From assembly GCA_030836185.1 (NCBI GenBank), contig JAURQH010000021.1, forward strand, positions 1-64,000: a stretch of DNA of 64,000 nucleotides, given 5' to 3'. Source of the stretch: Planctomycetota bacterium. Its GTDB lineage: Bacteria; Planctomycetota; Planctomycetia; Planctomycetales; Planctomycetaceae. Within the stretch, counting starts at the first letter, position 1. Each line of letters starts with the position of its first letter. A program made the position numbers and the translations under genes. Below are positions 3,201-29,496 of this stretch, in pieces. The notes beneath the pieces were generated by a model. The model was not told where the DNA came from, made no database searches, and worked only from the letters and a program-made list of their open reading frames with translations.

Positions 3201-4552
3201 ACTTCAATTACCTTATTGCTATCGCCAAACGTGTCGATCTCCACGCCCATCCGCTGAGCCATGAGGAGCAGCAGATTGCTCACATGGGCATCTGAGTTTG
3301 CAGGGCGACTGCAGAGGCCGTAATGCTCGCCCGGCTTATCGAGCTGATAACCCCCGAAGTGACCCTGATTGAAGTCAAGGTGGCTGCCGTGCTTCAGGCC
3401 GAGGTCTGAACCACCGGCGAGTACCAGCGGCAGGTTGGCGTTGCCGTGGCTGTGGCCGTAGCTCATCCCGCTGCCAAAGAGCGACATCGTCGAGCTCAGG
3501 AGCGGCTTGCCATTGAAGTCCTTGGTCTCTTCGAGTCGCGAGAGGAAGTAACGAAACTGCTCTATGGCGAATGTGTCGTAGTTGGTGAGTTTCTCCATAT
3601 AGCCTTCATCACCGCCGTGGTGGCTGAGCTGATGGCGGGACTCGGAGATGCCAATCTCAGGAATGGCGAACGCATCTCCCTCACCGCCTAGACTAAAGGT
3701 GGCCACTCGGGTCACATCCGTCTGGAAGGCCAGCACGATGAGGTCATAAACCGTGCGGAAATAGTCACCCGCTTGGGTTTTAGGAATGTCGCGGTTGGTG
3801 CGTTTGCGGTCGGTGTCGGAGATATCGGGAAGCGGTGTATCGAGCCACGCATCGGCCCGCCGTGTGCGGATCTCGGCCTCACGAACAGAGGTGAGGTATT
3901 GATCGAGGCGTCCCTTGTCGGTCGCACCCATCTTCTGCTCCAGCCGACGTACTTCCGCGAGGTTGTCATCAAGCACACTGGCTTTACGGCGTAAGGCTCT
4001 TCGCTGCGCTGCGATGCCTCCTTTTGGCTCCTCAAAGAGGGACGCGAAAATCTCGCTGCAACGCCGCATCGCAGGAAGCTGGACGCCGTCTGCGGTCCAG
4101 GCGAGTGAACCCTGCGTGAGGGCAATCTCCATGGAGGGATAGCGGGTGTGCTGTGCGGTGACCTCGGCCATCTTCTGGTCCACGGATATGGTGTTATGTT
4201 CCGAAGGGCCGATCTTTCCGCCGGTCAGCCAGATGTTGATGCAGTTGTGGTGGTGGCCGAGACTTCCCGGATGATGCAGACCGCTGACAGGAGTAATGAC
4301 CTCGCGGTACTTCTCCAGAGGCTTAAGCGATCGTGATAATTTATAGTCTTTGCCTGGAGTCGTGATCTGATAATTCAGTGAATGGACCCCGTTTGCGAGA
4401 TAGATGAAGGCGCTGCGCCCGGGTGAGGCATCTGGCTCGGCTGCGTTGAGAGGAGCCATACATTCCAGGAATGGAAGCGAGATGCAGGTGCCCATTGCGC
4501 GAAGGGCATGCCGGCGGTCGAGCAGCCAAGATTGGGATAGAAAGTTGCTCAT
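3197..4552 (-). CDS. DUF1552 family secreted protein
   Basis: The protein has 451 residues. Near the start, [12 protein letters not shown] followed by a short hydrophobic stretch forms a twin-arginine-like leader, as is usual in DUF1552 proteins. Family hallmarks seen are the [13 protein letters not shown] segment, SLDQ-like SVDQKMAE, and the C-terminal [20 protein letters not shown] and [20 protein letters not shown] stretches. DUF1552 is distantly related to DUF1501 and to alkaline-phosphatase-like folds, but its reaction is not known. It lies between the DUF1592-type gene (74 bases upstream) and the two paralogues of unknown function. DUF1592-DUF1552 pairs are standard in Planctomycetes and act outside the cytoplasm. 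Confidence 0.93.
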
Positions 4553-4626: not shown

Positions 4627-7128
4627 TCATCTCTTCCCGATCAGTTCAGACAAGGCCACGGCGCGCACGATGTCTCTGACGCCGTATTGGTGTTGCTTCG
4701 CTTCGTCGAGGATTGCCTCGACACCGTCCCGGTCATCCACGGTCAGCACGCGACGAAGCGCGTAGATGCAAAGATGTTCAATGAAGGCTTGTGCTACCTT
4801 GTCGCGGTCTTCGAATAGCAGATGTTTGAATTCATCCGAATCGGTGAACGGGCGACCGTCGGGCATCACGCCGGAGGCATCAACCAGTGGGTCTTCACCC
4901 TTACCCGTAGGAACGTGCTCGCGCGTTCGCCACTGACCGACGGCATCGTACTGGTCAAATGCCAGTCCCAGGGGATCGATGTTCCGATGACAGGCGGCAC
5001 AACTTGTGTGTTTGGCATGTGCTTCAATTCTCTGTCGGATCGTGATCTTGTTTCCCTGGGGTGGAATCGGCTCGATCGGATCCACATTGGCCGGAGGTGA
5101 CGGAGGAGTCCTGTTAAAGATCGCTTCGCTGACCCAGACACCGCGATGAACCGGGCGGTGGCGAGTTCCGTCCGAGGTCAATCCGAGCACCGCGCCCATC
5201 GTGAGCAGACCGCCTCGATGGTCCTCGGACTTTAGCGAGACACGCTGGAAGCCGTCTTTCTTCGGCTCGGGCAGTCCGTAGAAATCGCACAGCCGGGCGT
5301 TGGCTATCGTCCAGTCGGAATCGAGGAATGCCGCGATGGGCAGGTTCTTTGCGAGCATTTCACGGAAGTACTCGACCGGTTCCTCACGCATGCTCGTCTC
5401 GAGCCAGTCATCGTAGGTGGGGTAGAGTTTCTTATCTGGTGGGAACATGCCGACGCGGTGTAGTTGCAGCCACTGCCGCGAGAAGTCGTCGATGAAGCGG
5501 TTAATCCGGTCGTCTGTCAACATCCGGTCTACTTCTTTCTTCAGCCCCTCGCTGTTCAAATTCCCGCTTCTGGACGCACTGAAGAGAGCGTCGTCTGGCA
5601 TCGAACTCCAGAGGAAATACGACAGCCGAGATGCGAGTTCCCAATCGGTCAGACCTTCGCGGGCTTCGGGTTCCCCCTCAACGAGATAGATGAAGTTCCT
5701 GGATGTCAGTACGCTCTGCAACATGATTCGATAAGCATCGGCTAGCTTTTCACCCGCCTCACGCTCGGCACGGTAAGACTCCAGATAGTCCTTCAGTTCC
5801 TCCTTCTTCACCGGTCGTCGCCAGACGCGTTCAGTAAATCGTTGCAGATGCTCCGCGACCACTTCGTCAGTCGCGTCATCGGGCGGCAGTACGTTAGCGC
5901 GGCGTGACTTCTCGGCTTTCGAGACCAGCGGGCCTTCCCATTCAATCCAATCGAGGATCACCGTCGAGAAGATGCCGTTCCCTTCCCCATCGAACATCTG
6001 CGGAGCATTGGGGTTAAGCAGCAGGGTCTCGCTGCTGTGAGTAAAGATATATCCTCCGCGGCTGGCGAGTGCATTACGGAAGGCAGCGCCGCCTCGTCGG
6101 TCCACAACATCAGTGGCGACCACGGCGAAATGCAACTGGGTTGGCATCTCGAGAAACACCTCGAACTCATAAACCTGCGGACTGTCTTCCGATGCGGTGA
6201 TGTCAAATTCAATGAGTCCGTCAACAGTCTCCTCACTGGTCTTCATGCCGATGCTCAGGTGGGCCGGTTGACCACCGGGGGGACGGATACCGCTGGCCTG
6301 AAGACGGAGTTTGTAGAGCCCGCTGTGCTCTGGTCCCGTCTTTCCAAACCAGTTGGAGGACAAGGCGGGCTGTACTCGACCGGGAAAAAGGAGATAACGG
6401 AGCGGTCGCTTAATGCCAAACCGATCCAGTGCTTCCTGCTGTTTCTTGCCGCCAGAATAACGCAATTCTGCGGCCGTTCTTCGAACTTTGCGAGCCTCAC
6501 TGGTCGTACTGGGGAAAGCACGGTCGAGCACGATGTCCGCCGCACGGTAATAGCGGTCCACGTGTGAAGGCGAGAGTGAAAGTTGCGCCCCGATGCGTTC
6601 ATAGCCATGCCATAACGTGTCTTCGTTCAACTCCCCAGGTTTAGCCGGATCATATCGAACTCCTAACAAATCATAGACCGTGTTCTGATATTCCTTCCGG
6701 CTTAAACGATAGTGAGACACCGCCGGTCGCGCCGCCATCCGCGCCGCTCGCCCTTCCTTCAACAGCGAGTCGAGTTTGGTGACGAATGTCGCGATCTCGT
6801 CCTGCGTCGGCTGTGGTTCATCTTCCGGCGGCATCTCGCCGCTGTTGAGTTTGTCGAGCGCCTCTGCCCAGTGATGCGTGTCCACTCCCGCTTTGAAATC
6901 ACGAGACAACTGGTCGATCCGAATGTCGCCTTCCTCTTTCTGAGGGCCGTGACAGCGAACGCAGTGTTTCTCAAGAAAGGCTTCAAACGGTTCCGCAGCA
7001 GAAGCAGACACAGCCATGGAAACAAATGCGAAGCTGATCAAACAGGATTTCACCGATAATCTCCAACTCGAAAGGCCTGGAGTCTGGAGAAGATTGCGAT
7101 ATAAATATTGGCGTGGACTATTGGGCAT
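4627..7128 (-). CDS. DUF1587/1592/1588/1595/1585-type dihaem secreted protein
   Basis: The protein has 833 residues. A signal peptide ends near SASAAEP. A planctomycete cytochrome c domain follows, with CVRCH at residues 56-60. The middle shows the DUF1587-like [17 protein letters not shown]1595/1592 segments ([27 protein letters not shown]), then DUF1588 ([16 protein letters not shown]) and a second haem motif, CAACH, at 710-714. DUF1585 ends the protein. These proteins are thought to be periplasmic dihaem redox partners of DUF1552 proteins in polysaccharide breakdown, but no substrate is known. It is the first gene of the minus-strand operon running to 577. No strong ribosome-binding site was seen for the chosen start. 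Confidence 0.93.
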
Positions 7129-10975: not shown

Positions 10976-11197
10976 CAGTTCATCTATGATGTAACGCAAG
11001 GTCAGTGGTACCTTTTCAGTTCTCTCTAAAGACCTTGACGGCACAGTCTTTGTAGACAGGTTGATGAGAATGAGAGGCGAAGATACCGAGAGGTTCCCGC
11101 GAGAGATTTGGATTTGCAGGTTGTGAAGTGACAGTGATCTCAAGTAATATTGAACACAATATCACTCTCGATGTTGGCTATCCAGGAATCGCCAAAT

Positions 11198-13360
11198 ATG
11201 ACAATTTCGAACTCCCGTACTGATTGCTTCTCCAAGATGGTGGCTTTCTGTCTGATGACCCTGAGTTTGCTGGCACAAATTGAAGGAGGTGATCTTCTCA
11301 GCTTTACTGCCAGAGAGGTTCCCCAAATACAGGCTCTCTCGGAAAGTTTGGCAACGGAATACAACCTCGATCCCGGCTTCTACGAGAAAGCAACCGTGTC
11401 CGAAGGGATCTTGATCGTGTCTTCCGAGAAGGTTTCGGATAATGCTCATCTAGAAGCCGCGTATCAGTTCGGCATGATCATGCAACGCATCAACAATGAT
11501 ATCGCTCAGCGAATTCGCGAACAGAAAGTGTTGTGTCTGTTGATCGGACACGACGAACTGACCTCTCAACTGCCGCAATTTGCTTCCGATAAAACGGGTG
11601 AAGAACTCGATTTTTACAACTGGCGAAATCGAGGTTTTTTGAGTCGAAAAAACGGACGAGCTGTAGTCGTCTTCGCGGAAGAGGATGTCCTTGAATATGA
11701 AGGTGGGATGCAGGAGGAAAGTATTCTGATTCACGAGTTTGGTCACGTGGTGCACATCGTCGGTTTCGACAAAGGATTACAGGATCGTTTGACCGAGTGT
11801 TATGAGACAGCAATCGCAAATGGTCTCTATAATGACGGTCGGGCCGCGCAACGGTTTCGACGGGTCAAAGGAGACCAACCCGTCAAATTACTTACCGCAC
11901 TGATTGAATGGTTTCCCGCTGAGTCGCCAGTGTTGTTGAAAAAATGTCTCGACTCGGGTGACATTCTGGTGAATGGAAAGCCGACCGATTGCCATGTCGA
12001 AGTCACTGAGAAGGACAAGGTTCTCATCATGTTCGGCGGTGACAAGAAATGTTACGCCACCCGTAATCGGTCCGAGTATTGGGCCGAGGGATTTCAGTGC
12101 TGGTATAACACCAATCGCACGATGGATCACGATCACAACCATCTGCAGACTCGCGAGCAATTGAAAGATTACGACAAGCCACTTGCTCAGTTATGCAGTG
12201 ATGTACTGGGAAATCCAGAGTGGCGGTTTGTCTCGCCGCGCGAACGAGCGGGAGAGGGACACCTGAAATACTTCGACCCCAAAGCGTCGCCAACGGTCGT
12301 CGACCTACCCCATATCCAGAAAGCCGCCAACGATTACTACGATGGCTATTGGCGCGAATTCTGGCAGCGATTACGAGATAAGCACAACGTCAAAACACAT
12401 CCCATTCCGTGGAGTGAAAACTGGCTCATCTATAAGGGAGGAATTGGGCCGGGGGCCGGTAAGCATGTCGTACTGATAGCAGCCGATCAGGAATACCGCA
12501 GTGAGCAGGTCATGCCGATGCTGGCAAAGATTCTCTCTAAACGTCACGGCTTTGATTGCACGGTGCTGTTCTCTCTAAATGACAAGGGGGAAGTCGATCC
12601 GACGCAAAAGATTCGCTGGCAGGATAAAACCGTCATACATGATGTTCCGGGACTGGAACATCTGACAACAGCCGACCTGATGATTCTCTTCAGTCGACTC
12701 ATCACCCTGCCCGACGAACAGATCCAACATATCATCGACTACCTGGAATCCGGAAAAGCTGTCATCGGCATTCGGACCGCCAATCACGGGTTTCTGGAGA
12801 ACTTTCCTTATGAAATCGACAGCAAGCAGGTGCGGTTCGGTGAGGATGTTCTTGGGGGATCGTTTCGTTCGCATCACGGCAATTGGCATCGCGATTCAAC
12901 ACGCGGAATCATCCTCGAAGAGGCGAAGGACCATCCGATTCTGACAGGGGTGAGCGATATCTGGGGGCCGTCGGATGTCTATCGAACATATCCCGAAGGG
13001 AAGAGTCTCCCGGAGGGCTGTATTCCGCTAGTGATGGGACAACCGTTATCGGGTAGAAGTCCTGATGACAAACCAAATCCCAAGAAGATACCATTGCCTA
13101 TCGCTTGGACGAATTTCTGGACGGGGAGCACAGGCAAAACTGCGAGAGTCTTCCATGTGACAATGGGGAGTGCAAAAGATTACCAGTCTTCGGGACTGCG
13201 ACGCATGACAGTGAACGCTGCCTATTGGTGTCTCAATATGGAAGTCCATATTGATGCCAAAAGTAGTGTTGACTACATCGGCGAGTATACACCCCTGAGG
13301 AGTGGCTTCAATTACGAGAAACTGAATGTCGTTCCTCAAAAACCCGAGGCGTTGCAATGA
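11198..13360 (+). CDS. Secreted zincin metallopeptidase-ThuA fusion
   Basis: The start at 11198 follows AGGA with good spacing and opens a signal peptide (KMVAFCLMTLSLLAQIEG). An alternative ATG at 11150 is less likely. The protein has about 720 residues. The first domain carries HEFGHVVH (His179, Glu180, His183) and a later RSEYWAEGFQ segment with Glu293 or Glu297 as likely third zinc ligand, typical of zincins. Between them is a short insert (LDSGDILVNGKPTD, VTEKDKVLIMFGG) that resembles an S4-like fold. From about residue 420 a ThuA-like domain begins (GKHVVLIAADQEYRSEQ), with FRSHHGNWHRDSTRGI later. ThuA folds are related to glutamine amidotransferases, but their role is unclear. The stop overlaps the next start by four bases, so the hexahaem gene is co-translated. 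Confidence 0.88.
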   Translation: MTISNSRTDCFSKMVAFCLMTLSLLAQIEGGDLLSFTAREVPQIQALSESLATEYNLDPGFYEKATVSEGILIVSSEKVSDNAHLEAAYQFGMIMQRINNDIAQRIREQKVLCLLIGHDELTSQLPQFASDKTGEELDFYNWRNRGFLSRKNGRAVVVFAEEDVLEYEGGMQEESILIHEFGHVVHIVGFDKGLQDRLTECYETAIANGLYNDGRAAQRFRRVKGDQPVKLLTALIEWFPAESPVLLKKCLDSGDILVNGKPTDCHVEVTEKDKVLIMFGGDKKCYATRNRSEYWAEGFQCWYNTNRTMDHDHNHLQTREQLKDYDKPLAQLCSDVLGNPEWRFVSPRERAGEGHLKYFDPKASPTVVDLPHIQKAANDYYDGYWREFWQRLRDKHNVKTHPIPWSENWLIYKGGIGPGAGKHVVLIAADQEYRSEQVMPMLAKILSKRHGFDCTVLFSLNDKGEVDPTQKIRWQDKTVIHDVPGLEHLTTADLMILFSRLITLPDEQIQHIIDYLESGKAVIGIRTANHGFLENFPYEIDSKQVRFGEDVLGGSFRSHHGNWHRDSTRGIILEEAKDHPILTGVSDIWGPSDVYRTYPEGKSLPEGCIPLVMGQPLSGRSPDDKPNPKKIPLPIAWTNFWTGSTGKTARVFHVTMGSAKDYQSSGLRRMTVNAAYWCLNMEVHIDAKSSVDYIGEYTPLRSGFNYEKLNVVPQKPEALQ

Positions 13361-16146
13361 ACCGAATGGTCAAAGCTCAATCGATTATCTGTTCGACCTT
13401 TATCGCTCTTATTGCGATTTCCGGGGGGAACGTCTTCTCACAGACATTGACAGAAAAACTGAAAGAAGAATCACTCGATGATCTCAACAAGGCAGTTCAA
13501 CAACAGGGAAATGCTGTCCGAGGAGCAATTTTGTTCTCTCAGCAGAAACTCGGCTGTGTGAACTGTCACGCTACTGGCAATAATGCCCTGCTCGGCCCCG
13601 ACTTGACGCGTCCGACGGAGAAACTCGAGGATAAGCTTTATGTCGAAGCACTCTTGTATCCCTCCGAACGAATTCCAAAGGGGTATGAGACGGTGACGGT
13701 CGTGACGAAAGCAGGTAAGTCATTGACTGGTCGAATGATTGATCGGACCGAAATAAATCTCACGATACGCGAGAACACACCCGAACGTCGTTTGGTCAAT
13801 CTTGAGTTCAGCGACATTGATGAAATGGTAACGAACAAAGTCTCCAGTATGCCAGAAAAGCTGGTCAATCAATTGAAAGACAGGCAGGAATTCCTCGATC
13901 TTGTCCGTTATGTAATTCAACTGTCGACCTCCGGTGCGTCGATCGTTCAGCCTACGAGGGATCAGGTCACGCTCTCGCCCGAAATACAGGGCATGTTGTT
14001 GATCAAGGAACTCCATTGCGCTGCCTGTCACCAGGATGATGTGACCAATGTACCGTTGCAGGTGAAACATGCACCCAAATTGAGTTGGTCCGCAGGCAGG
14101 ATCAATCCTGATTACATTCAACGATATATCTCTGATCCTTTACACGTGAAGCCGGGTACTACGATGCCGGACGTTCTGTCGACGCTCTCGGCAGAGAAAC
14201 GAAACGAAACCGCGACGCTCATCACGCATTATCTGACCTCACTCGGCGAAAGCGAATTTGAGTTTCAAGAGACTGATCCCAAACGAGTCACCGATGGTCG
14301 AGAGTTATTTCATTCAATTGGCTGTGTCGCCTGTCATTCGCCCCGCGATGAGCAAGGGCAGGAGCTGTTGAAGGAAAATTCGGTTCCGCTGGGGAAACTG
14401 GGAGACAAATACAATCTCGATGGACTTATCGAATTTCTGAAAACCCCGCATGAAGTTCGTCCCTCTCGACGCATGCCCGACATGAAACTCACTCATTGGG
14501 AGGCTCTCGATCTGGCTCATTATCTCACTGCAGATCGAACCATTTCAAAGGTTGACTTCGAAACCAAATCGTCACTCGCCGCCAGAGGTCGTCTAGAATT
14601 TCACGAAAAACAATGCGTGCAATGTCATACTGTGTCTGGGAAAGGTCACAACTTTAACTCGGCTCCCCTGTCAAGTGTCCGTATCGATCGGGGATGTCTG
14701 TCAGACGAGACAGGCATCTGGCCGAACTTCGCACTGTCGGAAGGCGATCGTGATTCTATCCGTTCCGCACTCTCCTCAGAGGAGAAGAACCTTTCTCTCG
14801 AAGATCGCATTGCCGTCACTCTAGCGGGGCTCCGTTGCGTGAATTGTCACGAACGAAATGGTTTGGGAGGTGTCGAGGAGGAACGGAATTCCTATTTTCT
14901 CACGACGAATCCAAATCTTGGACCACAAGGCAGAATTCCACCAACATTGACACACGCGGGAGCCAAGTTGAGACAAAAGTGGATGAGGCAGGTTCTGGTG
15001 AGTGGGCGTTCGATTCGTCCTTACGTCAAGACTCGAATGCCTCAATACGGTACAGAGAATGTCAAAGAATTGATCTCATTAATTCAGAATGCGGATCAAC
15101 TAGCGGAGGTGAAGTATCCCGAGTTCGATGATCAGAAAGTGATGCGACAAACCGGTGCGGAAATGGTCGGCGTCGGCGGTTTGAACTGTATTGCCTGTCA
15201 TACTTTTCAATTGAAACAAGCCGCCACGATGCCTGCCGTCGATCTGACAGAGATGGCGGAACGTCTGCAGAAACCTTGGTTCTATCATTACATGAAACGT
15301 CCCCAGCAGCTCAGCGCGAATACCATTATGCCCTCCTTCTGGCCGGGCGGGACAGCGATTCGAAAAGACATTCTCGATGGCGATCCCAGTCTGCAAATTG
15401 AGGCACTCTGGCAATATCTCTTGGATGGGCGTCAGGCCCGGACGCCGCGGGGGCTGATTATCGAACCGATTGAATTATTGGCGACCGATGAAGCAGTGAT
15501 GCTGCGTCGATCGTATCCGGAAGTCGGCAAACGCGGGATTGGAGTCGGTTACCCAGCGAATGTAAATATTGTCTTCGATGCCGAACAGATGCGACTTGCC
15601 ACTCTCTGGACCGGTAAGTTCGCCGATCCGGGTGGTGTCTGGAGAAGTCAAGGGCATGGGAGAGTGCGACCACTCGGGGAGCGGATCGCGCAGTTTGCAA
15701 AAGGTCCCGATCTCGATCTTGCTCAATCGCCCTGGACGGTCGATGACGGTCGCCCGCCGCATCATAAGTTCCGCGGCTATCGCCTCGATGAAAAGCGACG
15801 ACCAGTCTTCATGTATGAGTTTCAGGGAGTTCAGGTTGAAGACTATTTCGTCGACACGAAGTCAGACGGAGATGGCCCCCCAACTTTGACTCGTCACCTA
15901 AAGCTGCAGTCTGAAAAGCCTGTCGCAGGCTTGCGCCTGCGTTTGGGAAGTGGAAAAAAAATCGAATCGTCTGGACAGAACTCCTTTCAGGTTGATGGAA
16001 TTTTAAATGTCAGAGTTGGAGGGAAGACGGAAATTAGAACCGGTATGGACAATATGCAGGAATTGTATCTGCTGTTCGATTTGTCTGCCGGAGTAACCAC
16101 TCTCAAAGTCAAATACGACTGGCCTGATCGCTCATCGCAAAAATAA
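13357..16146 (+). CDS. Secreted hexahaem cytochrome c protein
   Basis: The protein has 929 residues and an N-terminal signal (IICSTFIALIAISGGNVFSQ). Six CxxCH motifs begin at Cys67 (CVNCH), Cys221 (CAACH), Cys323 (CVACH), Cys420 (CVQCH), Cys494 (CVNCH) and Cys611 (CIACH). The first is followed by the usual PVC-type haem domain tail (PSERIPKGYETVTVVTKAG, then LTGRMIDRTE). The C-terminal 300 residues lack haem motifs and look beta-rich, with EFQGVQVEDYFVDTK. The arrangement suggests an electron conduit in the periplasm or cell envelope serving the propeller protein encoded next. It is translationally coupled to the zincin-ThuA gene. No close relative with a known substrate comes to mind. Confidence 0.92.
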   Translation: MNRMVKAQSIICSTFIALIAISGGNVFSQTLTEKLKEESLDDLNKAVQQQGNAVRGAILFSQQKLGCVNCHATGNNALLGPDLTRPTEKLEDKLYVEALLYPSERIPKGYETVTVVTKAGKSLTGRMIDRTEINLTIRENTPERRLVNLEFSDIDEMVTNKVSSMPEKLVNQLKDRQEFLDLVRYVIQLSTSGASIVQPTRDQVTLSPEIQGMLLIKELHCAACHQDDVTNVPLQVKHAPKLSWSAGRINPDYIQRYISDPLHVKPGTTMPDVLSTLSAEKRNETATLITHYLTSLGESEFEFQETDPKRVTDGRELFHSIGCVACHSPRDEQGQELLKENSVPLGKLGDKYNLDGLIEFLKTPHEVRPSRRMPDMKLTHWEALDLAHYLTADRTISKVDFETKSSLAARGRLEFHEKQCVQCHTVSGKGHNFNSAPLSSVRIDRGCLSDETGIWPNFALSEGDRDSIRSALSSEEKNLSLEDRIAVTLAGLRCVNCHERNGLGGVEEERNSYFLTTNPNLGPQGRIPPTLTHAGAKLRQKWMRQVLVSGRSIRPYVKTRMPQYGTENVKELISLIQNADQLAEVKYPEFDDQKVMRQTGAEMVGVGGLNCIACHTFQLKQAATMPAVDLTEMAERLQKPWFYHYMKRPQQLSANTIMPSFWPGGTAIRKDILDGDPSLQIEALWQYLLDGRQARTPRGLIIEPIELLATDEAVMLRRSYPEVGKRGIGVGYPANVNIVFDAEQMRLATLWTGKFADPGGVWRSQGHGRVRPLGERIAQFAKGPDLDLAQSPWTVDDGRPPHHKFRGYRLDEKRRPVFMYEFQGVQVEDYFVDTKSDGDGPPTLTRHLKLQSEKPVAGLRLRLGSGKKIESSGQNSFQVDGILNVRVGGKTEIRTGMDNMQELYLLFDLSAGVTTLKVKYDWPDRSSQK

Positions 16147-16157
16147 ACCTCACGGAA

Positions 16158-17693
16158 ATGATGATCATGTGTGATATCCATCAATCTCTCGTCAAGACAT
16201 TCCAGTTTTCATTCATACTGCTGTGCCTCTCGACCAGTTCTTCAAGGGCTCAGCAACCGTTGGGCGAATACTGGGAAACGGCGGAAGAGGAATCCAAGTA
16301 TTATGAAATCGTCGAGATTCCTCTCCCGGAAGAGACAGCGCTTGAGGCCGGTAGTTTCGAGGTTTTGCCCGATAATCGTCTGGCAATCGGTACCCGCCGA
16401 GGAAACATCTATTTGATCGAGGGAGCTTTCGCAGAAAACCCTAAGCCCAAGTATCACATCTACGCAAGTGGGCTCGATGAGATTTTCGGCATGTCTTACA
16501 AGGACGGTTCCTTCTTTATTACGCAACAGACAGAAGTGACGAAGATCACCGATACCGATGGCGACGAACGCGCCGATCTGTTCGAGACACTCAGCGATGT
16601 CTGGGGATTTCGGAACTATCATGAATTCGCATTCGGGTCCAAATTGGACAAAGAGGGCAATATCTGGGTCGCGCTGTGTCTCTCGGAATCTTATCGCTCG
16701 AAGGTTCCTTTTCGTGGCTGGTGCCTCAAAGTGACTCCCGATGGAAAGACCGTTCCCGTCTGCAGTGGCCTTCGCAGTCCCTGCGGAATTGGTCCCAACG
16801 AACACGGCGTCATGTTTTATGCGGAAAGTCAAGGGCCCTGGAATGGTTCCTGCTCTCTGAAGGTCCTCGAACCAGGCGGATTTATGGGGCATCCCGTCAG
16901 TTTCAACTGGTATCCCCTGGCCCCCGAATTGGGACCGGCTCCGGTCGAACCGAATTCCCCATCTCGTCTGGAGATTGAACGCAAACGTGTCAAAGAATTA
17001 GTTCCTTACGCGGTAGTGTTTCCTTACATCAAAATGGGGCGTTCTATTTCAGGTTTCATGGTCGATCAAACGAGAGGAAAGTTCGGTCCGTTCGAAAATC
17101 AAATCTTCATCGGAGATTTCAGTCTCAGTTTGATGATGCGTGCCACCACCGAAAAGGTGAACGGCGTCTGGCAAGGTGCCTGTTATCCATTCCGGGAAGG
17201 ACTCGCGACCGGCTTGCTCGCTTGTCAGTTCACTCCCGCAGGAGATCTGGTTGTCGGTGGGACAAATCGCGGTTGGCCCGTGCGAGGTCCGCGACCCTAT
17301 GCGTTGCAGCGAATCGAATGGACTGGTATCACGCCCTTTGAAGTGAAGGAAATCAACGCATTACCGCGAGGTTTTCGGGTCACCTTTACCAAGCCTGTCG
17401 ACAAAAAAATCGCGGCCGACCCGAATTCATACGCTTTGCAGACCTACACACATATGTATCGTCAGGCTTATGGCAGCCCGGAGGTCGATCACACCACGCC
17501 GACGATCTTAAGTGCTGATGTCTCAGAGGACGGCTTGCAGGTTGATCTGCAAATCAAAGGTTTAGTGCAAGGTCACGTCCACGATTTCGATTTCTCGAAG
17601 ATCCAATCCGCGGAAGATGGCTCCCTCGTTCACTCGAAAGCGTATTACACGCTCAACGAAATTCCGGAAGCTGAACTCACCTCGCAGAATTAA
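16158..17693 (+). CDS. Secreted beta-propeller, sorbosone/PVC dehydrogenase-like
   Basis: The protein has 511 residues with a signal peptide ending near SSSRAQQP. The body has the repeated beta-propeller pattern of PVC-type membrane-bound dehydrogenase and glucose/sorbosone dehydrogenase-like proteins: VLPDNRLAIGTRRGNIYLIE, TDTDGDERADLFETLSDVWG (a D-x-D-x-D calcium-type loop), KLDKEGNIWVALCLSE and GLRSPCGIGPNEHG. The last 130 residues look like a C-terminal beta domain (RVTFTKPVDKKIAADP). It has no haem motif of its own, so the hexahaem protein 11 bases upstream is the obvious electron acceptor. Cofactor use (for example PQQ) cannot be settled from the sequence. It is the last gene of the three-gene operon. 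Confidence 0.88.
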   Translation: MMIMCDIHQSLVKTFQFSFILLCLSTSSSRAQQPLGEYWETAEEESKYYEIVEIPLPEETALEAGSFEVLPDNRLAIGTRRGNIYLIEGAFAENPKPKYHIYASGLDEIFGMSYKDGSFFITQQTEVTKITDTDGDERADLFETLSDVWGFRNYHEFAFGSKLDKEGNIWVALCLSESYRSKVPFRGWCLKVTPDGKTVPVCSGLRSPCGIGPNEHGVMFYAESQGPWNGSCSLKVLEPGGFMGHPVSFNWYPLAPELGPAPVEPNSPSRLEIERKRVKELVPYAVVFPYIKMGRSISGFMVDQTRGKFGPFENQIFIGDFSLSLMMRATTEKVNGVWQGACYPFREGLATGLLACQFTPAGDLVVGGTNRGWPVRGPRPYALQRIEWTGITPFEVKEINALPRGFRVTFTKPVDKKIAADPNSYALQTYTHMYRQAYGSPEVDHTTPTILSADVSEDGLQVDLQIKGLVQGHVHDFDFSKIQSAEDGSLVHSKAYYTLNEIPEAELTSQN

Positions 17694-17702
17694 GCATGTC
17701 TG

Positions 17703-18920
17703 TTAATCCATCTTGGACAACGCCTCCGCGAAGGCTTTGCCTATCTGTCCGAGAATCTTTGAACTTCCCAGGTAATGATACTCTGCGTTGGAGACCCCGA
17801 CTTCGAGGATTTTTCGTTCTCGATCCGTGAATGATTTCTGATAGAGTTGCGCGGTCAGTTCTCTGGCTTGATCGCGGGTCAAATTTTCTTCCTGTTGCTG
17901 CTTCTTGACCTGTTGTCGTATTTGAGATTCGCGATATCTCAGGTCCGACAGCTCGTTGTCCCAATAGTTCTCCGTACGGACGGCGACGACATTTTCTTTG
18001 AACTCCGGCATCTCGGCAGGAGCTGCCATTGCATCCCGGAAGTACGAATGAACTCCCGCGTAGCGTTTCTGATTCGCGTGATACTTTTCCACCGGACCCC
18101 CAGCTCCCATCACTCCTATTACAAACGGCAGCTCGGGAGCTTTCAGGTCTTTGCGAACGTCGCGAATAAAATGTGCCAACACTTTGCTGTACTCCTCGTA
18201 ACCGCCCGGCTGATAACGATTGGGATAAGTTCCTCCGTCGACCATGTCATTCCAGCCCTGAAACCAGACAAACCCCGCCAGTTCATAACCCCGTTTCGGA
18301 TCGTAATCGGGAGAGACTTTCTTGAGGTCGGCGAGAACCGCGTTCACGTGATCGATCATTAAGCGATAATAATGGCCGGTCGCTTCTTCTTTAGCCGCTT
18401 TGATCTCCGTCAGGTCTTTCCCCTGCTTTCTCCAGTTGGCCAACTGATTTTCATCGAACTGATAAGGACCAGCACTCGGTGGACGAAAGTCGGTGTTAAG
18501 ACTCTTGCCGCCCCAGGCGGTTTTGATGATCAAAATCGGCTCACCCAACTGCTGCTGCATGGTGATACCAAACGTCAATTCGGGACCGATTTTCTCATCG
18601 CTGGCCCCAAATCCTGTCGTCAATTGCCCCCGCTTCACATCTCCCGAAGAGAGGTATGAGATAGAGATGTCTTTGTGGACCTTTGGTGTCCCATCCGCAT
18701 TTTGAATCTGATCCAACAAGGGCTTGGTTTTCGGGTCCATGCCGAGATGTTTCAGCGTCCGCACGTGGGCATGCCCCTGCATGTTGGACTGGCCGGACAG
18801 TATGAAAACTTGCAACGGCTTGTCGGCTGCATGAGAAATACCTGACACAAACAAGCTCAGTAAGCAGAATAACAGTGGCATCATGGAGACACATGAGTGG
18901 GAGTGAAATTCGATCTTCAT
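17703..18920 (-). CDS. Sialate O-acetylesterase-like secreted esterase (SASA family)
   Basis: The ATG at 18920 is chosen because AGGAC lies just upstream and a signal peptide follows (LLFCLLSLFVSGISHA). A longer frame from 19073 would place 51 atypical residues first. The protein has about 405 residues. SGNH/SASA marks are VFILSGQSNMQGHAH with the nucleophile serine, FVWFQGWNDM as the third block, and EYHYLGSSKILGQIG with the probable catalytic histidine. SASA enzymes remove acetyl groups from sialic acids or plant sugars. Here a role in deacetylating polysaccharide is inferred. It converges on the propeller operon with only nine bases between stops. Confidence 0.9.
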   Translation of the reverse strand: MKIEFHSHSCVSMMPLLFCLLSLFVSGISHAADKPLQVFILSGQSNMQGHAHVRTLKHLGMDPKTKPLLDQIQNADGTPKVHKDISISYLSSGDVKRGQLTTGFGASDEKIGPELTFGITMQQQLGEPILIIKTAWGGKSLNTDFRPPSAGPYQFDENQLANWRKQGKDLTEIKAAKEEATGHYYRLMIDHVNAVLADLKKVSPDYDPKRGYELAGFVWFQGWNDMVDGGTYPNRYQPGGYEEYSKVLAHFIRDVRKDLKAPELPFVIGVMGAGGPVEKYHANQKRYAGVHSYFRDAMAAPAEMPEFKENVVAVRTENYWDNELSDLRYRESQIRQQVKKQQQEENLTRDQARELTAQLYQKSFTDRERKILEVGVSNAEYHYLGSSKILGQIGKAFAEALSKMD

Positions 18921-19659
18921 ATCGTCCTCTTGGCTGAATGTGATCAACAGGGCTGAAAATATTCTTAGAGTCAAGATATCAATTCCAGAATAGGATTGCA
19001 TGAGAGTGTTGGTCAGAAATTGGTGATCAGCGTATCCTGATCCATCGACCTGCCTCGGAATTTCCGTTGCCACTAGAAAGATTAAAAAACTGAAACGACA
19101 ATCAAATCTCTGAACCCGCTCAATTTGAGACGGACTGAGAGTTCCCTATTCTGTCGAGGCATAAACCACCTGAACATCACTTCTTTGCGATTCAGTTCTG
19201 AGGTTTCACGAAATGCACCTGTCATGCGGACTTCTTGCGATAACAAAACAGCACCAGCAGATCGAACCGGCTTAAGCCGCGCCGTGGTCGTCATACTTGA
19301 GCAGCCCGCCGAGTCGCTCACGATGTGGACACCATCAGTGTCCAATACGATCCACAAGTTACTCAAGCTTTGAGAGTCAGCAGTGGGTGGAAAATTCTGA
19401 CGATGTACAGCAATTGCTATTCGGTAAATTCAAGCGGTGTTTCACATTCGTTGTCTAGAGCTAAGTCCGTGTTGGGACGGACGTAAGTCCGGTTACACGG
19501 TGGCCGAGATCGTCGTCTGATCATCAAAGCGAGACCCTCATTTTCGATCGTCAGTCACGGTCTCCAGCAAGGCCATCACCGCCTGCTTGGTGTAATCAGT
19601 CAGAGAATTTCAGGCCGAGGACAACTGCGAAAAAGCCCCCTTAATGAGGACGAGCGTAG
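18921..19659. other. Intergenic gap with repeat copy C
   Basis: About 0.74 kb lies between the esterase start and the end of the metallophosphoesterase-like gene. Most is repeat copy C (19090-19520). The rest (19520-19659) shows no recognisable gene. A short minus-frame stretch reading TDYTKQAVMALLETVTDD is too small to call. Confidence 0.6.
19090..19520 (+). repeat. Dispersed repeat, copy C
   Basis: It pairs with copy D (10417-10800) from CTGAAACGAC onward and with copy B in its right half (AGCAGTGGGTGGAAAAT, GCGGTGTTTCACATTCGTTG). It carries roughly 100 bases between the two halves that copy D lacks or has lost. The frame reads HSLSRAKSVLGR, then a stop. Confidence 0.78.
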
Positions 19660-24459: not shown

Positions 24460-27400
24460 TCATGGTTTGAAGGCACCATCATTCTCGTTTCCAAGTGCCA
24501 GCACATATGCCAGCAAGTCGAGAATTTGCTCTTTTTCCAACGAATTGAGCAAGCCAACTGGCATGATCGAAACGGGAGAAGACCGTCGAGCTTCGATGGA
24601 GCTTTTGGCGACCTTCTTCTCTTTGATCTCTGGCGGTCCCGTGAGAATCGTTAACTCGGTTTTATTCTCAGAGACGATATTTCCGTTGAGGGTCGTGCCG
24701 TCTTCCAAGACAAGTAGTACCGTTCGATACTTATCTTCAATCTTTCGTGAGGGCTCCAGAATCTCTGCCAAAATGGCTTTGGGATCGCTCTTATGTTTCT
24801 TCTTAACGACCTCATCCAGATTAGGACCAATGGTGAGATTACGACCGAGCGTGACACTGTTTTCGTCCAGTTTATGACATTGTGCACAGGCAAGCTTTTT
24901 GAAGAGGTGCTGACCTTGTACAAAATTTCGCTGGCGGCCAACATGCTTTAACTCCTGATCAAGATCGGTGAGTTTCCACTCCGTATTCTTGATCATCTGC
25001 TGAGGATTCTTGGCGAGGAACTCTTTGAGATTATCCGTCACGTAAAGAGTGCCACGCATGAGCAAATGATGGCCCGGGAATGAGCAGATATAAGGATAAG
25101 CACCTTCCTTCTTCGGAGACGTGAACTCGATGGTTTCTTCCTGTCCATGATCGATAAGCTTGCTGGCCCAAAGGATTTCGTCACTTTCTGGTACGAAACC
25201 AACCGAAAAGCCGCTGGCTCCCAATGCAATGGCCTGTAATCCTACTTCGTCGGCCTTACCTGGATTGACTAGCATGATGTTGTGAGGCATATAATCCGGG
25301 TTGGCAAATGTCAGTTTGATTTTTTTACCGGGCTTCACCGTGAGTTCGGTGACATCATAACGCATCCGTTCACGCACGGTCCCGATACGAATGGTTGTTA
25401 ATTCGGGCGTGTCGCTGAGAATTCCCGATTTTTGAGTTGCAGCTTCTTCAGCTTCTGCAATCACTCCCCCACGCATCGTACTTTCGACATTGAACCACAA
25501 ATGCTTGACCGTGTTCGCAGCGATGCGAGCATGTGGCTCGGGAGACATCAACAGTTGCCCGAGAAGATCCAGATTTCTGTCATCGTGTTGCTGATGCAAC
25601 CAGAGTGCTTCGAGCAAATGGTGTGCATCTTCTTTTTTAGTGGGATCAAACTGTTTGACCCATTCTGTGGTCGCGGCGATCACTGCACTCGAATCACGCT
25701 CACTCAATTCAATACGTGTGCGTTGCCGGATACCGTCAATAGGTGATTTCAGATTTTCAAGGAGTGCGTTAATTGGCTCACCATCAATGGCAACCGGCTT
25801 TTGTAGAGGACGACCGATAGCCGTCATGCGGTAGACACGGCCGTGAGCGTGATCGCGATTTGGATCACGCACATTATGTTGCATATGACCAATAATGACG
25901 TTGTGCCAGTCACAGAAATATAAGGATCCATCTGGAGCGAAGATCGCATCAGCAGGGCGGAAGTTTTTGTCTCCACTCATCATTAGACCACGAGATTTTT
26001 CAGTAGTCGTACTGCCATCGGCATTGACAGTTGAAACGGTGAGTTCGTCACCGGCTGGCTCACCCCAAACTGTTCCTTTTTCACCATCGCGAACAAGGTC
26101 GTAGTGCTTGATGCCCAGGAATCCAATAACATTGCAGATCAGAAAGTCACCCTGCATTGACTCCGGGAAGTGGGAACTACTAACAACTTCGCTTGCCGTC
26201 ACCGGACGCACTTCTTTCTTCAATAACTCGTGCATCTTGAAGCCCTTGGCTTCTGGTCGAACTTGATAAGCTCGACCACCAGTACCATCTGTCGCATAGT
26301 GATAACCCCAATAGTCAAAGGAGATTCCATGAGGGTTTGGGGAGTTGTCGGCATGACGCGAAATGGTGAATCGTCGCGGATCGAAGCGGTACATGGCTGA
26401 TGCGCCGGTTTGGAGTGACGGTCCCCATGGATGTTCGTGGTTATGCATCATGAAGACACCACTTTGCCAGTAGATCGCACCGTCAGGTCCATAGATAAAG
26501 TTGTTTGCACCGTGATGAGTGTCTGAGGAATCGAGTCCCTGCAACAGCGTGATTCGAACATCGGCCACATCGTCGCCGTCGGTGTCTTTCAGAAACAGAA
26601 TTTCTGGTGCACGATTAACGATGACACCACCATTCCAAAACTCGAAGCCGAGCGGATTCTGAACGCGAGCAAATTCGGTGACACGATCTGCTTTGCCATC
26701 GTTGTTGTCATCGTGCAAAATGATCAATGCATCATTCATCTCTTTCAATGGTTCCCACTTGGGATAGGTGGGCCAAACAGCAGCCCAGAGTCGGCCTTTG
26801 GTATCGAATTGCATTTGCACCGGGTTGACCAATTCCGGGAATTGTTCGTCATCCGCAAACAGGCTGACTTCAAAGCCCTTCGCGACAGCCATGTGCTTGA
26901 TCCCTTCTTCGCCGCTAATATATTTCAGGCGGCCTTCTTTCATGGCGTTGGAGCTTTTACTGCCACCACCGACATTCGAAATCACTTCAATTGGCTTGGG
27001 GACATTGCTGTCATCGACTTTGATATCTTCACCTTTTGCGACAGCCCAGACTCGCAAATCGCGATTTTTGGTCATCACATCCAGCATCGTCTGCTCGTGT
27101 TGTAAGACAACCGCATTCGTCTGATCGTTGGTGAACTTCAATGTGGAGCGTCCACCCCAGACATCGTTTCCATCGCGAGCACGGTAGCGATTGTTCCAAT
27201 GATAATTCTTATCGATCACAGCAGACCGAAGTTGTTCCAGTGAGGGTGAAGCGGTCACTTTCTGACCAAAGAGCGATGAAGCAATCACTCCCGCCAGTAA
27301 CCGGTTGCCTTCCTCAGTGAGATGTACGCCGTTGACTGTAAGTGGTGTGCTCGACTCCTTGAACAACTGCATGGAGGGATGGAATAAATCCACGTAGCCG

Positions 27401-29496
27401 ACACCCGCTTCGCGTGCAGCAGCTTCAGTTGCCTTGGTATAAGCGGCAAGCTGAATGTTGTGACGTTTACCGTCAGGGACGTTTTTATTGCCGGTGTCTT
27501 CATGGGCAATTGGGCTGAACAGGATAATGCGAGGGAATGATTTTCCATTGGCTTTTGAACCGCGAGTTCTTTTGACGAACTCGACGAGTTTTCTTTGGTG
27601 TTCACCGGCTTTTTTCACGCCTTCAAACGATTCGTTGTAGCCGAAGAATGCAAACACAACATCTGCTTGCACATACTGAAGGTATTCGGTCATCGAAGCC
27701 GCACCTGAACTGCGCGGAAATGAGTCCGGGCGATCTCCACTCGCGCTCATGTTGCGGAAACGGACTTTCTTACCTTGCAATTCATTCTGCAAGAGAGTTT
27801 CTAACCACCCATCATGCTGCATCCGATCCGGTAATCCATTCCCCAAAATGGCGACGACATCGCCTTCCTGAAATTCAAACGGTAGCGGGTCGCGATAGTC
27901 ATCAGGCACGTCTACCAGCAAGGGGTTTTTGGAAGCCGAGTTCGCCACGAAAGGCTTGCCCGGTTTTCCGTTGTAGCTGAGATAGGTTGTTTTCCCGGAT
28001 TTTTTGACATCAACTTGCATAATCTCTGGTGCGGCAACATTTGAAACGCGAAAGACCGGTTTACGCTCTGCATCTAATAACGTGAGAGTGAAATTCTGGA
28101 GACGACTTTCAAAGCCTTTACGATTCCAGATACCAATCTGCTCAACGTCGACAGCCTTTCCGAGATCGACTTCCCACCAAGGGTTTGTTGTCCCCGAGTT
28201 CGCGGTATGTGTCTGACCGCCTTTGTTCCAGTCAGAGTCTTTGTTTCCATCTAATGCTTTTGCTGCAACACCCCCACTATTCGTGCTTGACTGCGTGGCC
28301 TTGCCACCCTTTGCGACGTTCTTTCCTCCACTAATCACTTCTACTTCTGCCAGTGTCAAAATTCGTTTGTTGCCGGGAAGTTCGATACGAACGAAGCGTG
28401 CTGGTTTACCTGTCGCGAGAGCCGTAGCGGACGGTTTCTTTGTCTTGGAATTATTGGCCCTCTTTTTTGTGTCTGTTTTTTTTGTATTGTTGTTCGCTGG
28501 AATGGGACTTTTGTACCCCACATACATCTCTGGTTTGATTCCACGAGCGTAGGTACCACCGCCAAAAGTATTGGGTTTGAATGGTCCCACGAATGCGATG
28601 TTGGCATCCGCTTTGATGGAATCTTCCATACCAAGCGACCAAAAGCAGCCGTTGACAAGCATGCGGCGGTAGCCATCATTCAGAAGATCTTCAGGGGTAC
28701 CATAAAGGGAGGTAAAGACGCGACCTTTCACTCCTGACTTGGAAGTGTAACTTCGAGTCCATTCCGAAGGCATCGGTGGCTTTGTTTCATCGGCTGGAGA
28801 AGCCGGAGTCATACCATTCAGTGGTTGAGCCATCGTCAAGGTTTCACCATCGACAGGTTTACCCACATAACCGCCCGCCTGTACCCAGATATCTTTCACA
28901 CCCCGCAAGATCGGGTGACTCTCTTTGCCTTTGACCACTGTGATGCGTGTGCTCTGCACGTGATTTCGACCGTAGTGGCCAACCCAAGTTTGGCCCAAGA
29001 CCTGATTTCCAAAGCCGAGTTGATAATCTTTGTCTTTACTGTCGTAGGAATACTTTGAAAACGGTTCGTCAGCTTTCATTTTGAAGCCGTGAGTTGCAGT
29101 TCGCATTCCCACGACGGGGCCACCTCGATTGAGATAGTCATCAAAGTGCTTCATTTGTTCGGGAGGGAAGCTTTGGAACCTTAGAAATACGACCGCAAGG
29201 TCGGCTGTGTTTAATGCTTCGATGCCGGGCATGTTTGAGTTTCCGGCAACAATTTCTCCCGACTCTTGATCGATATTGAACAGAACGGTGCATTTGAAAC
29301 CGTGATGCTTTGCCAAGATGCGCGCCATCGCTGGCAGCGACTCTTCCGAGCGATATTCATGATCTCCTGCGAGGAAGACAATGTGCTTGCCTTTGCCGAC
29401 TCCTTCAGTCCCTTCATAGACAAGTGGGGCCGCGTTAGCAAAACCTGTCACGAGGAGTGTTAAACAAACGAAAACAGCATGAGAAAAAGATTTCAT
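24460..29496 (-). CDS. Giant secreted ThuA/discoidin/SGNH/propeller/azurin/cytochrome c protein
   Basis: The protein has 1678 residues with a signal peptide ending near GFANAAP. Domains in order are: ThuA-like (about 35-310, GKHIVFLAGDHEYRSEES), a Lys/Asn/Thr-rich linker (about 330-355), discoidin-like (about 360-500, NPWWEVDLGKAVDVEQIGIW), SGNH-like (about 545-740), PVC-type dehydrogenase propeller (about 870-1220, KDTDGDDVADVRI), a helical HEAT-like part, an azurin-like cupredoxin with ligands His1405, Cys1471, His1476 and Met1480, and a PVC-type cytochrome c with CAQCH at 1537-1541. The Cys-x4-His-x3-Met spacing equals that of azurin. The SGNH block has GNGLPDR instead of GDS and NGVH instead of DxxH, so esterase activity is doubtful. 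A full chain from sugar oxidation through copper to haem on one polypeptide is inferred. Confidence 0.93.
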   Translation of the reverse strand: MKSFSHAVFVCLTLLVTGFANAAPLVYEGTEGVGKGKHIVFLAGDHEYRSEESLPAMARILAKHHGFKCTVLFNIDQESGEIVAGNSNMPGIEALNTADLAVVFLRFQSFPPEQMKHFDDYLNRGGPVVGMRTATHGFKMKADEPFSKYSYDSKDKDYQLGFGNQVLGQTWVGHYGRNHVQSTRITVVKGKESHPILRGVKDIWVQAGGYVGKPVDGETLTMAQPLNGMTPASPADETKPPMPSEWTRSYTSKSGVKGRVFTSLYGTPEDLLNDGYRRMLVNGCFWSLGMEDSIKADANIAFVGPFKPNTFGGGTYARGIKPEMYVGYKSPIPANNNTKKTDTKKRANNSKTKKPSATALATGKPARFVRIELPGNKRILTLAEVEVISGGKNVAKGGKATQSSTNSGGVAAKALDGNKDSDWNKGGQTHTANSGTTNPWWEVDLGKAVDVEQIGIWNRKGFESRLQNFTLTLLDAERKPVFRVSNVAAPEIMQVDVKKSGKTTYLSYNGKPGKPFVANSASKNPLLVDVPDDYRDPLPFEFQEGDVVAILGNGLPDRMQHDGWLETLLQNELQGKKVRFRNMSASGDRPDSFPRSSGAASMTEYLQYVQADVVFAFFGYNESFEGVKKAGEHQRKLVEFVKRTRGSKANGKSFPRIILFSPIAHEDTGNKNVPDGKRHNIQLAAYTKATEAAAREAGVGYVDLFHPSMQLFKESSTPLTVNGVHLTEEGNRLLAGVIASSLFGQKVTASPSLEQLRSAVIDKNYHWNNRYRARDGNDVWGGRSTLKFTNDQTNAVVLQHEQTMLDVMTKNRDLRVWAVAKGEDIKVDDSNVPKPIEVISNVGGGSKSSNAMKEGRLKYISGEEGIKHMAVAKGFEVSLFADDEQFPELVNPVQMQFDTKGRLWAAVWPTYPKWEPLKEMNDALIILHDDNNDGKADRVTEFARVQNPLGFEFWNGGVIVNRAPEILFLKDTDGDDVADVRITLLQGLDSSDTHHGANNFIYGPDGAIYWQSGVFMMHNHEHPWGPSLQTGASAMYRFDPRRFTISRHADNSPNPHGISFDYWGYHYATDGTGGRAYQVRPEAKGFKMHELLKKEVRPVTASEVVSSSHFPESMQGDFLICNVIGFLGIKHYDLVRDGEKGTVWGEPAGDELTVSTVNADGSTTTEKSRGLMMSGDKNFRPADAIFAPDGSLYFCDWHNVIIGHMQHNVRDPNRDHAHGRVYRMTAIGRPLQKPVAIDGEPINALLENLKSPIDGIRQRTRIELSERDSSAVIAATTEWVKQFDPTKKEDAHHLLEALWLHQQHDDRNLDLLGQLLMSPEPHARIAANTVKHLWFNVESTMRGGVIAEAEEAATQKSGILSDTPELTTIRIGTVRERMRYDVTELTVKPGKKIKLTFANPDYMPHNIMLVNPGKADEVGLQAIALGASGFSVGFVPESDEILWASKLIDHGQEETIEFTSPKKEGAYPYICSFPGHHLLMRGTLYVTDNLKEFLAKNPQQMIKNTEWKLTDLDQELKHVGRQRNFVQGQHLFKKLACAQCHKLDENSVTLGRNLTIGPNLDEVVKKKHKSDPKAILAEILEPSRKIEDKYRTVLLVLEDGTTLNGNIVSENKTELTILTGPPEIKEKKVAKSSIEARRSSPVSIMPVGLLNSLEKEQILDLLAYVLALGNENDGAFKP

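Follow-up and report, generated by a model that had tools for sequence, protein, structure and literature searches.

The window analysed here is a stretch of 64,000 nucleotides from a Planctomycetota bacterium of the Planctomycetaceae (assembly GCA_030836185.1, contig JAURQH010000021.1, positions 1 to 64,000). It contains an operon of three genes, which encode a fusion of a zinc metallopeptidase domain (zincin) with a ThuA domain, a multihaem c-type cytochrome and a beta-propeller protein. Comparison with other genomes reveals that the operon belongs to a real and conserved cassette, whose core consists of ThuA, a cytochrome with usually five haems and the propeller. The zincin is optional, and the window holds the rarer, peptidase-fused version. 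Each part can be assigned to a known family or resembles one, and their combination is new as far as our literature search reaches: among open-licence papers, to which the search was confined, there was no description of ThuA together with a cytochrome and a propeller. The features of the operon are the following (positions are those of the window):

11198..13360, + strand: gene 1, probably secreted zincin-ThuA fusion, 720 amino acids from the ATG at 11198
11309..12460, + strand: zincin domain, fold like that of the Pro-Pro endopeptidases PPEP-2 and PPEP-3 (profile match and predicted fold)
11732..11746, + strand: HEXXH zinc motif HEFGH, residue 179 of 720
11846..12046, + strand: insert of about 66 residues between HEXXH and the downstream Glu motif, weakly S4-like
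12074..12088, + strand: EYWAE, candidate region of the third zinc ligand
12470..13348, + strand: ThuA domain (PF06283 and fold)
13357..16146, + strand: gene 2, c-type cytochrome with six CXXCH motifs, 929 amino acids
13507..13914, + strand: N-terminal TIGR02603 mono-haem domain of gene 2 (72.3 bits, cut-off 68.15)
15568..15840, + strand: C-terminal DUF6797 domain of gene 2 (27.2 bits, cut-off 24.9)
16158..17693, + strand: gene 3, beta-propeller (residues 44 to 391, approximately) and C-terminal strand-rich domain
16620..16622, + strand: His155, possible equivalent of the catalytic His in soluble glucose dehydrogenase (sGDH; alignment uncertain by one residue)
16773..16838, + strand: Arg206 to Gln225-Gly226-Pro227, candidate PQQ-contacting Arg and calcium loop, as in the aldose sugar dehydrogenases (Asd; PQQ, pyrroloquinoline quinone)

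Linkage of ThuA, cytochrome and propeller genes

The three open frames are as given in a preliminary description of this DNA, including the overlap of genes 1 and 2 by the four bases ATGA. Genes 2 and 3 are separated by 11 bases, and there is no listed frame of at least 100 amino acids in the approximately 850-900 bases upstream of the operon. Gene 1 has an alternative start at the TTG at 11150, which would result in 736 amino acids. All three proteins possess a hydrophobic N-terminus that, read by eye, resembles a signal peptide.

A scan of named genomes with a ThuA alignment retained 80 of 240 loci, to which all counts out of 80 refer, and a panel of 99 genomes of relatives was compared as well (G labels denote these genomes, L labels individual loci). 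The open frames come from contigs of metagenome-assembled genomes (MAGs), and single fused or split cases may be assembly errors. The propeller gene lies directly before a separate ThuA gene in 41 of the 80 loci (in L152, L155 and L180 on short pieces, with 28-104 bits), and in seven more both share one open frame. Four loci read zincin-ThuA, cytochrome, propeller; as L129 and L133 represent contigs that also appear in G001 and G023, the full operon was observed in five genomes, the source included. A zincin-ThuA fusion without a cytochrome-propeller pair in the sequence examined is present in 15 loci, which brings the fusions to 19 of 80, and 13 loci have ThuA with neither partner in reach, some of them on short contigs.

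Co-occurrence in relatives had been put forward earlier as a check; ThuA and propeller are linked in 52 of the 80 loci. The neighbourhood and the recurrent fused frames bear out the connection between ThuA, cytochrome and propeller, but not the idea of a unit that includes the peptidase, because 48 of the 80 ThuA loci are propeller-first and lack this zincin. A fixed three-gene unit with the peptidase is thus rejected. Judged from gene order, a functional link between ThuA, the cytochrome and the propeller is supported. In the 28 genomes without linkage, a propeller at least 55% identical exists elsewhere in 24 (three in pieces), and in the other 4 the identity reaches only 52-53%.

The linkage is a property of the cassette clade of ThuA. 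Within 1.5 kb, a cytochrome or propeller gene is found at 12 of 14 cassette-clade ThuA loci (L099-L111, L119) and at none of 16 paralogous ones, a control limited to L112-L118 and L120-L128, with a shortened flank in L127. Conversely, 20 propeller loci were obtained from the 99 relatives; 17 of these (L059-L075) are clade-level according to a clade-built profile, and L076-L078 score far lower. A cassette-clade ThuA adjoins the propeller or lies beyond the cytochrome in 12 of the 17, in the order ThuA-cytochrome-propeller in five and propeller-ThuA in seven (with the ThuA of G035 split over two reading frames). A cytochrome gene adjoins the propeller in 25 of 30 loci examined. Of the five others, four (L061 and L213, which are one and the same place, L070 and L075) run into the end of their contig on the side in question, and L078, which lies outside the clade, has no cytochrome within 1.5 kb of the propeller.

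ThuA is the best conserved part of the cassette, with 59-82% identity within the clade versus 34-66% for the cytochromes. The clade is distinct, being separated from the outgroup by a branch of 1.4 changes per column. In a tree of 87 rows, whose bootstrap had not settled, the zincin-fused ThuA domains stand near the clade base among a few unfused ones (G052, L134, L146, L175, L187), and the cytochrome-propeller-ThuA forms and their kin make up a set of 58 rows with support 83/92 (not starred). The propeller-ThuA open frame requires at least five changes on starred branches; the zincin-ThuA form may have arisen only once, which is compatible with the tree. The named loci nearest to the operon in this tree belong to Planctomycetaceae and Pirellulaceae MAGs. 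One locus labelled Methylotetracoccus (Pseudomonadota), L196, has a ThuA nearly identical to that of L199, which belongs to a Pirellulaceae MAG from the same series of samples, and the label is probably the result of binning contamination.

The propeller, the cytochrome and the zincin-ThuA fusion

Gene 3 barely passes the DUF7133 profile (28.2 versus 27 bits) and fails the cut-off of TIGR02604 (21.3 versus 122.2 bits). The propeller had been called dehydrogenase-like, and its predicted fold (mean pLDDT 86.2, 30 sequences) is indeed closest to PQQ-type sugar dehydrogenases. These occupy the first six VIA-align ranks: 3a9g_A (Z 27.4, 299 residues, 3.1 Å), 2ism_A (26.6), 7cgz_A (26.0), 3das (25.9), 7cdy_A (25.8) and E. 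coli Asd, 2g8s_A (25.3). Foldseek is concordant, and sugar dehydrogenases span Z 21.6-27.4 overall. These lists are re-scorings of Foldseek ranks, by which an unlisted family is not excluded.

A passage of PMC6881810 describes for sGDH a Gly-Pro loop that stabilises calcium and the residues His144, Arg228 and Asn229, which act at PQQ; according to a passage of PMC6881789, the PQQ Arg and the catalytic His are common to sGDH and the fungal enzyme CcPDH. Candidate counterparts in gene 3, namely His155, Arg206 and Gln225-Gly226-Pro227, are invariant in all 30 aligned propellers. With hhalign, the segment GLRSPCGIG...ESQGPWN was aligned with GIRNPQGMA...NEHGPRG of E. coli YliI. His155 is off by one from the catalytic His in an ungapped reading, and the alignment to YliI is ambiguous at this place. 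The same genome also contains a fragment of 142 residues (G000:C42:12865-13290) that shares 63% identity with the end of the propeller and possibly represents a decayed second copy.

The cytochrome encoded by gene 2 matches PF00034 with 82.1 bits and has exactly six CXXCH motifs, at residues 67, 221, 323, 420, 494 and 611, where 0.001 would be expected from shuffles. The six haems noted before are correct for this multihaem protein but hold only for its nearest relatives: among 43 cytochrome frames above 500 bits, 37 have five motifs, L129, L130 and L133 have six, and the remaining three, with one or three, are split frames. The additional haem appears to be supplied by the N-terminal TIGR02603 domain, since in most five-haem cassette relatives the match to gene 2 starts only at about residue 193. 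In L132 (11344-13671), the cytochrome of a full operon is read in two frames of 519 and 397 amino acids, which could be a frameshift or a true split.

For the zincin-ThuA protein (model with mean pLDDT 81.1, 32 sequences), the proposed fusion and the conservation of the peptidase motif both stood up to comparison. HEXXH is kept in all 19 fused orthologues (HEFGH in 16, HEFAH in three), and so is the downstream Glu motif (EYWAE in 18, EYFAE in one), at a spacing of 113-114. Gene 1 contains a single HEXXH, versus 0.052 expected from residue shuffles. The zincin model (residues 48-339) superimposes on 9g5j_D with Z 12.1 (186 residues, 3.6 Å) and on 6fpc_B with Z 11.8 (171 residues, 3.4 Å), the latter reaching only E 2.4e-3 in Foldseek. 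The anthrax-lethal-factor-like profile ATLF (PF07737) matches the zincin of L129 with 11.4 bits (E 0.26), far under the cut-off of 27.4, and gave no match with the window's own zincin in the Pfam scan.

The insert distinguishes this zincin from the widespread stand-alone paralogues, whose matches stop at about query residue 217 and restart at about 283. Its likeness to S4 domains is weak: the Pfam S4 profile finds one of five inserts (E 0.0034, 17.5 bits, under the 22.8 cut-off) and does not match the insert of the window, resemblances to RluD, YabO, HslR and YbcJ are faint (hhalign probabilities 4.7% and 2.9%), and kinesin, endonuclease and UreE rows appear in the same listing. Broad zincin matches occur in 52 of the 99 genomes. 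We rejected the possibility that all of them are orthologous; nine genomes including the source have the operon type, and the rest have paralogues without the insert in the match. The eight further operon-type orthologues are 62-78% identical (that of G056 is split over two contigs). Fusion to ThuA is seen in G001, G032 and G023, and the frame ends without ThuA in G007, G010, G015, G045 and G056. In G057 the same ThuA is joined by a similar GPG-GKH linker to a different zincin (HELAH), with M90 and ATLF matches that are both sub-threshold, and this fusion lies directly upstream of the cytochrome and the propeller.

The ThuA domain passes PF06283 with 39.5 bits (cut-off 33.4). Its model (residues 420-696) has a fold like that of class I glutamine amidotransferases, with 4e5v_B (Z 18.3, 232 residues, 3.6 Å) and 1t0b_A (Z 17.8, 199 residues, 2.6 Å) as matches. 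Sequence searches of the PDB with the propeller, the zincin-ThuA protein and ThuA as queries returned nothing useful. An ordinary trehalose (Thu) locus was considered and rejected, as neither a trehalose transporter nor a ThuB-like family was found among the 9 + 8 proteins scanned.

Possible function of the cassette

We propose, tentatively and with the chance that the whole is right put somewhat below even, that the operon represents a version, specific to its lineage, of a conserved, probably periplasmic redox cassette of Planctomycetota that acts on a saccharide. The fold and the kept loop residues suggest that the propeller would bind and oxidise a saccharide or glycoside. The adjoining cytochrome, to go by its haem motifs and its pairing with the propeller, would pass the electrons toward the respiratory chain. 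ThuA might act on the oxidised sugar or hold the sugar for the propeller. This role is proposed because of the linkage, the recurrent propeller-ThuA open frames and the part that ThuA reportedly plays in the use of 3-keto-disaccharides. The PPEP-like zincin with its S4-like insert would, in this lineage, probably cut the peptide that holds the substrate or anchor to it, which is the weakest step. One further protein of the window, encoded at 24460-29496, speaks for the proposal, as it unites ThuA, a DUF7133 propeller, an azurin-like and a haem domain in a single chain, and the SASA-type esterase homologues described below are supporting context. The earlier suggestion of sugar oxidation is in line with the fold, with the cofactor in doubt because of the missing pqqC (see below), and peptide cleavage coupled to electron export, formulated as a general property, would apply to one lineage only, the zincin being optional.

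Several observations weigh against a saccharide-oxidising cassette. The Pfam scan of gene 3 returned no PQQ-dehydrogenase family (DUF7133 and two sub-threshold families only), the alignment with YliI is statistically weak (E 0.099, probability 0.6%), Ser207 occupies the position of the PQQ Asn, and the first structure of another kind, the SMP-30-type 2p4o, follows with Z 23.7 about 4 Z under the top. Moreover, pqqC is present in 1 of the 99 relatives and missing from 98, with the strong single match showing that the search works, and pqqE has no match above the cut-off in the source genome. As broad-family propellers occur in 94 of the 99 despite the missing pqqC, PQQ would therefore need to be taken up or replaced. 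The absence of pqqC should be read as a warning that this usual cofactor cannot be taken for granted. Linkage is incomplete, too: four of the 17 genomes with a clade-level propeller have no intact linked clade ThuA (in G092 it lies elsewhere and is broken, and G034, G090 and G064 have paralogues only), and in a fifth, G032, the clade ThuA is on another contig. Since the zincin occurs without ThuA in five genomes, neither the zincin nor the cassette is indispensable for the other. Finally, one observation in favour has its limits: the purified verrucomicrobial protein Lac161_ORF7, which combines TIGR02604, HEAT and cytochrome parts, released glucose from lactose, but it has another architecture, and its activity, followed with a glucose oxidase assay, was reported as hydrolysis in an excerpt of the paper that makes no mention of PQQ (PMC5342196). 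A route in which lactose is oxidised and then cleaved via a 3-keto-sugar has been proposed elsewhere for other enzymes (as given in a part of PMC9007349).

It is possible that the propeller is an SMP-30/gluconolactonase-type lactonase, lyase or hydrolase on sugars and that the cytochrome serves a different step. SMP-30-type structures are close behind the sugar dehydrogenases (4gn7 with Z 22.7 next to 2p4o), pqqC is lacking as described, and the hydrolysis reported in PMC5342196 concerns a related protein. We nevertheless consider this unlikely, as the cytochrome stands beside so many propeller loci (25 of 30), related propellers are fused with haem domains, the first six fold ranks all belong to sugar dehydrogenases and the kept GLRSP...QGP loop aligns, if weakly, with a quinoprotein. 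The propeller and ThuA could also form a non-catalytic scaffold that docks a glycan onto a multihaem wire for extracellular electron transfer. This would agree with the presence of a multihaem cytochrome and with Agd3, whose ThuA-like domain has been studied as a carbohydrate-binding module (PMC7229062); however, the high conservation of ThuA, including numerous invariant polar residues and histidines, is easier to reconcile with an active site than with a loose surface for binding, which makes the scaffold distinctly unlikely.

A separate question is whether the zincin is a mere passenger, that is, a stand-alone peptidase fused by chance and without a redox role. The five genomes with ThuA-less orthologues (G007, G010, G015, G045, G056) and the 15 of 19 zincin-ThuA loci without the cytochrome-propeller pair in the sequence examined would be expected in this case. 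However, fusion and zinc ligands persist in all 19 loci, the same ThuA carries a second, different zincin directly before cytochrome and propeller in G057, and 14 of the 15 pair-less genomes possess a propeller at least 70% identical elsewhere (three in pieces), so that we regard a passenger as rather unlikely. The proposed redox cassette could be extended to a glycan-cleaving machine that works without cell-made PQQ. Here the propeller, with a different quinone or none, would oxidise a ring hydroxyl of a glycan, the cytochrome with its five or six haems would take and perhaps return the electrons, and ThuA would complete the cleavage of the keto-sugar. In this lineage, through the built-in zincin with its S4-like insert, a single complex would dismantle both the glycan and its peptide carrier. 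In this full form the proposal appears improbable.

Known systems, neighbouring genes and significance

Among the closest known counterparts are the propeller-haem proteins of the PVC (Planctomycetes-Verrucomicrobia-Chlamydiae) type, with TIGR02604/DUF7133 and TIGR02603. They come from the same superphylum and couple a propeller of the same general kind to a TIGR02603-type haem domain, and for one of them, Lac161_ORF7, a sugar-linked activity was reported (PMC5342196). However, Lac161_ORF7 is a single chain that includes HEAT repeats and a CxxCH haem domain, whereas the cassette consists of separate genes with five or six haems, ThuA and, here, a zincin. With PQQ-dependent sGDH and Asd, gene 3 has the propeller fold and, by a weak alignment, candidate equivalents of the Arg and the QGP loop in common, but it does not match the sequence profile of that family, has Ser for the PQQ Asn, and pqqC is missing in 98 of 99 relatives. 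In the fungal AA12 quinohaemoprotein CcPDH, too, a propeller that oxidises sugars is combined with a cytochrome (PMC6881789), although that partner is a cytochrome b and that of the cassette is c-type and multihaem, with ThuA and zincin in addition. The ThuA domain shares profile and fold with its family (PF06283; 1t0b, 4e5v), within which the cassette clade is distinct and tied to cytochrome and propeller. PPEP, ATLF and M90 zincins have the fold (Z of about 12 to PPEP), the HEXXH and the later Glu in common with gene 1, but the zincin of gene 1 is larger, contains the S4-like insert and is fused to ThuA.

The planctomycete-specific cytochromes PSCyt/PSD, haem proteins of the same superphylum with a suspected role in carbohydrate metabolism (according to a passage of PMC5615132), have domains unrelated to the cassette, and Pfam finds none in the operon. 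A gene of this type follows zincin-ThuA on the same strand in eight of the 15 pair-less loci (L135, L136-L141 and, after one other gene, L150; Pfam-checked for L135 and L136). Such linkage was counted in 10 of 20 zincin loci, the window included, versus 7 of 61 others, with a profile built from six of the counted sequences, one of which (L132) is of a different PSCyt/PSD type; the copy in the window is on the opposite strand, and L136-L141, six of the eight pair-less linked loci, are close relatives. For these reasons we do not press the association.

Two further genes of the window deserve a separate entry:

17703..19073, - strand: SASA-type carbohydrate esterase (PF03629), convergent neighbour
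24460..29496, - strand: six-domain protein with ThuA, F5/8, GDSL, DUF7133 propeller, azurin-like and TIGR02603 haem domains

Homologues of the esterase, 26-53% identical, are found by tblastn in nine of the 80 loci, several of them adjoining the cassette, and also in L095. The six-domain protein (1678 amino acids) is encoded by a separate gene, and its ThuA shares about 40% identity with the ThuA of gene 1. A stretch 70% identical to this protein is located about 1.2 kb downstream of the propeller-ThuA in L165. Further away in the window there are two tandem genes on the - strand (577-1848 and 1866-3200), approximately 70% identical to each other, the second of which has no Pfam match at E 0.001; the pair adjoins a DUF1552 gene (3197-4552) and a PSCyt/PSD gene (4627-7128).

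Planctomycetota are rich in haem-propeller and ThuA genes, and our search returned no known function for these. The cassette provides a testable handle on them, with its defined trio, recurrent fusions, clear homologues in many genomes and a set of three or four proteins that appear to be soluble. If glycans are oxidised by the propeller in organisms that do not synthesise PQQ, then either scavenging of PQQ would be common in these habitats or a different cofactor would exist. Should the machine outlined above be true, Planctomycetota would possess a widespread way of breaking down glycans that has so far gone unrecognised.

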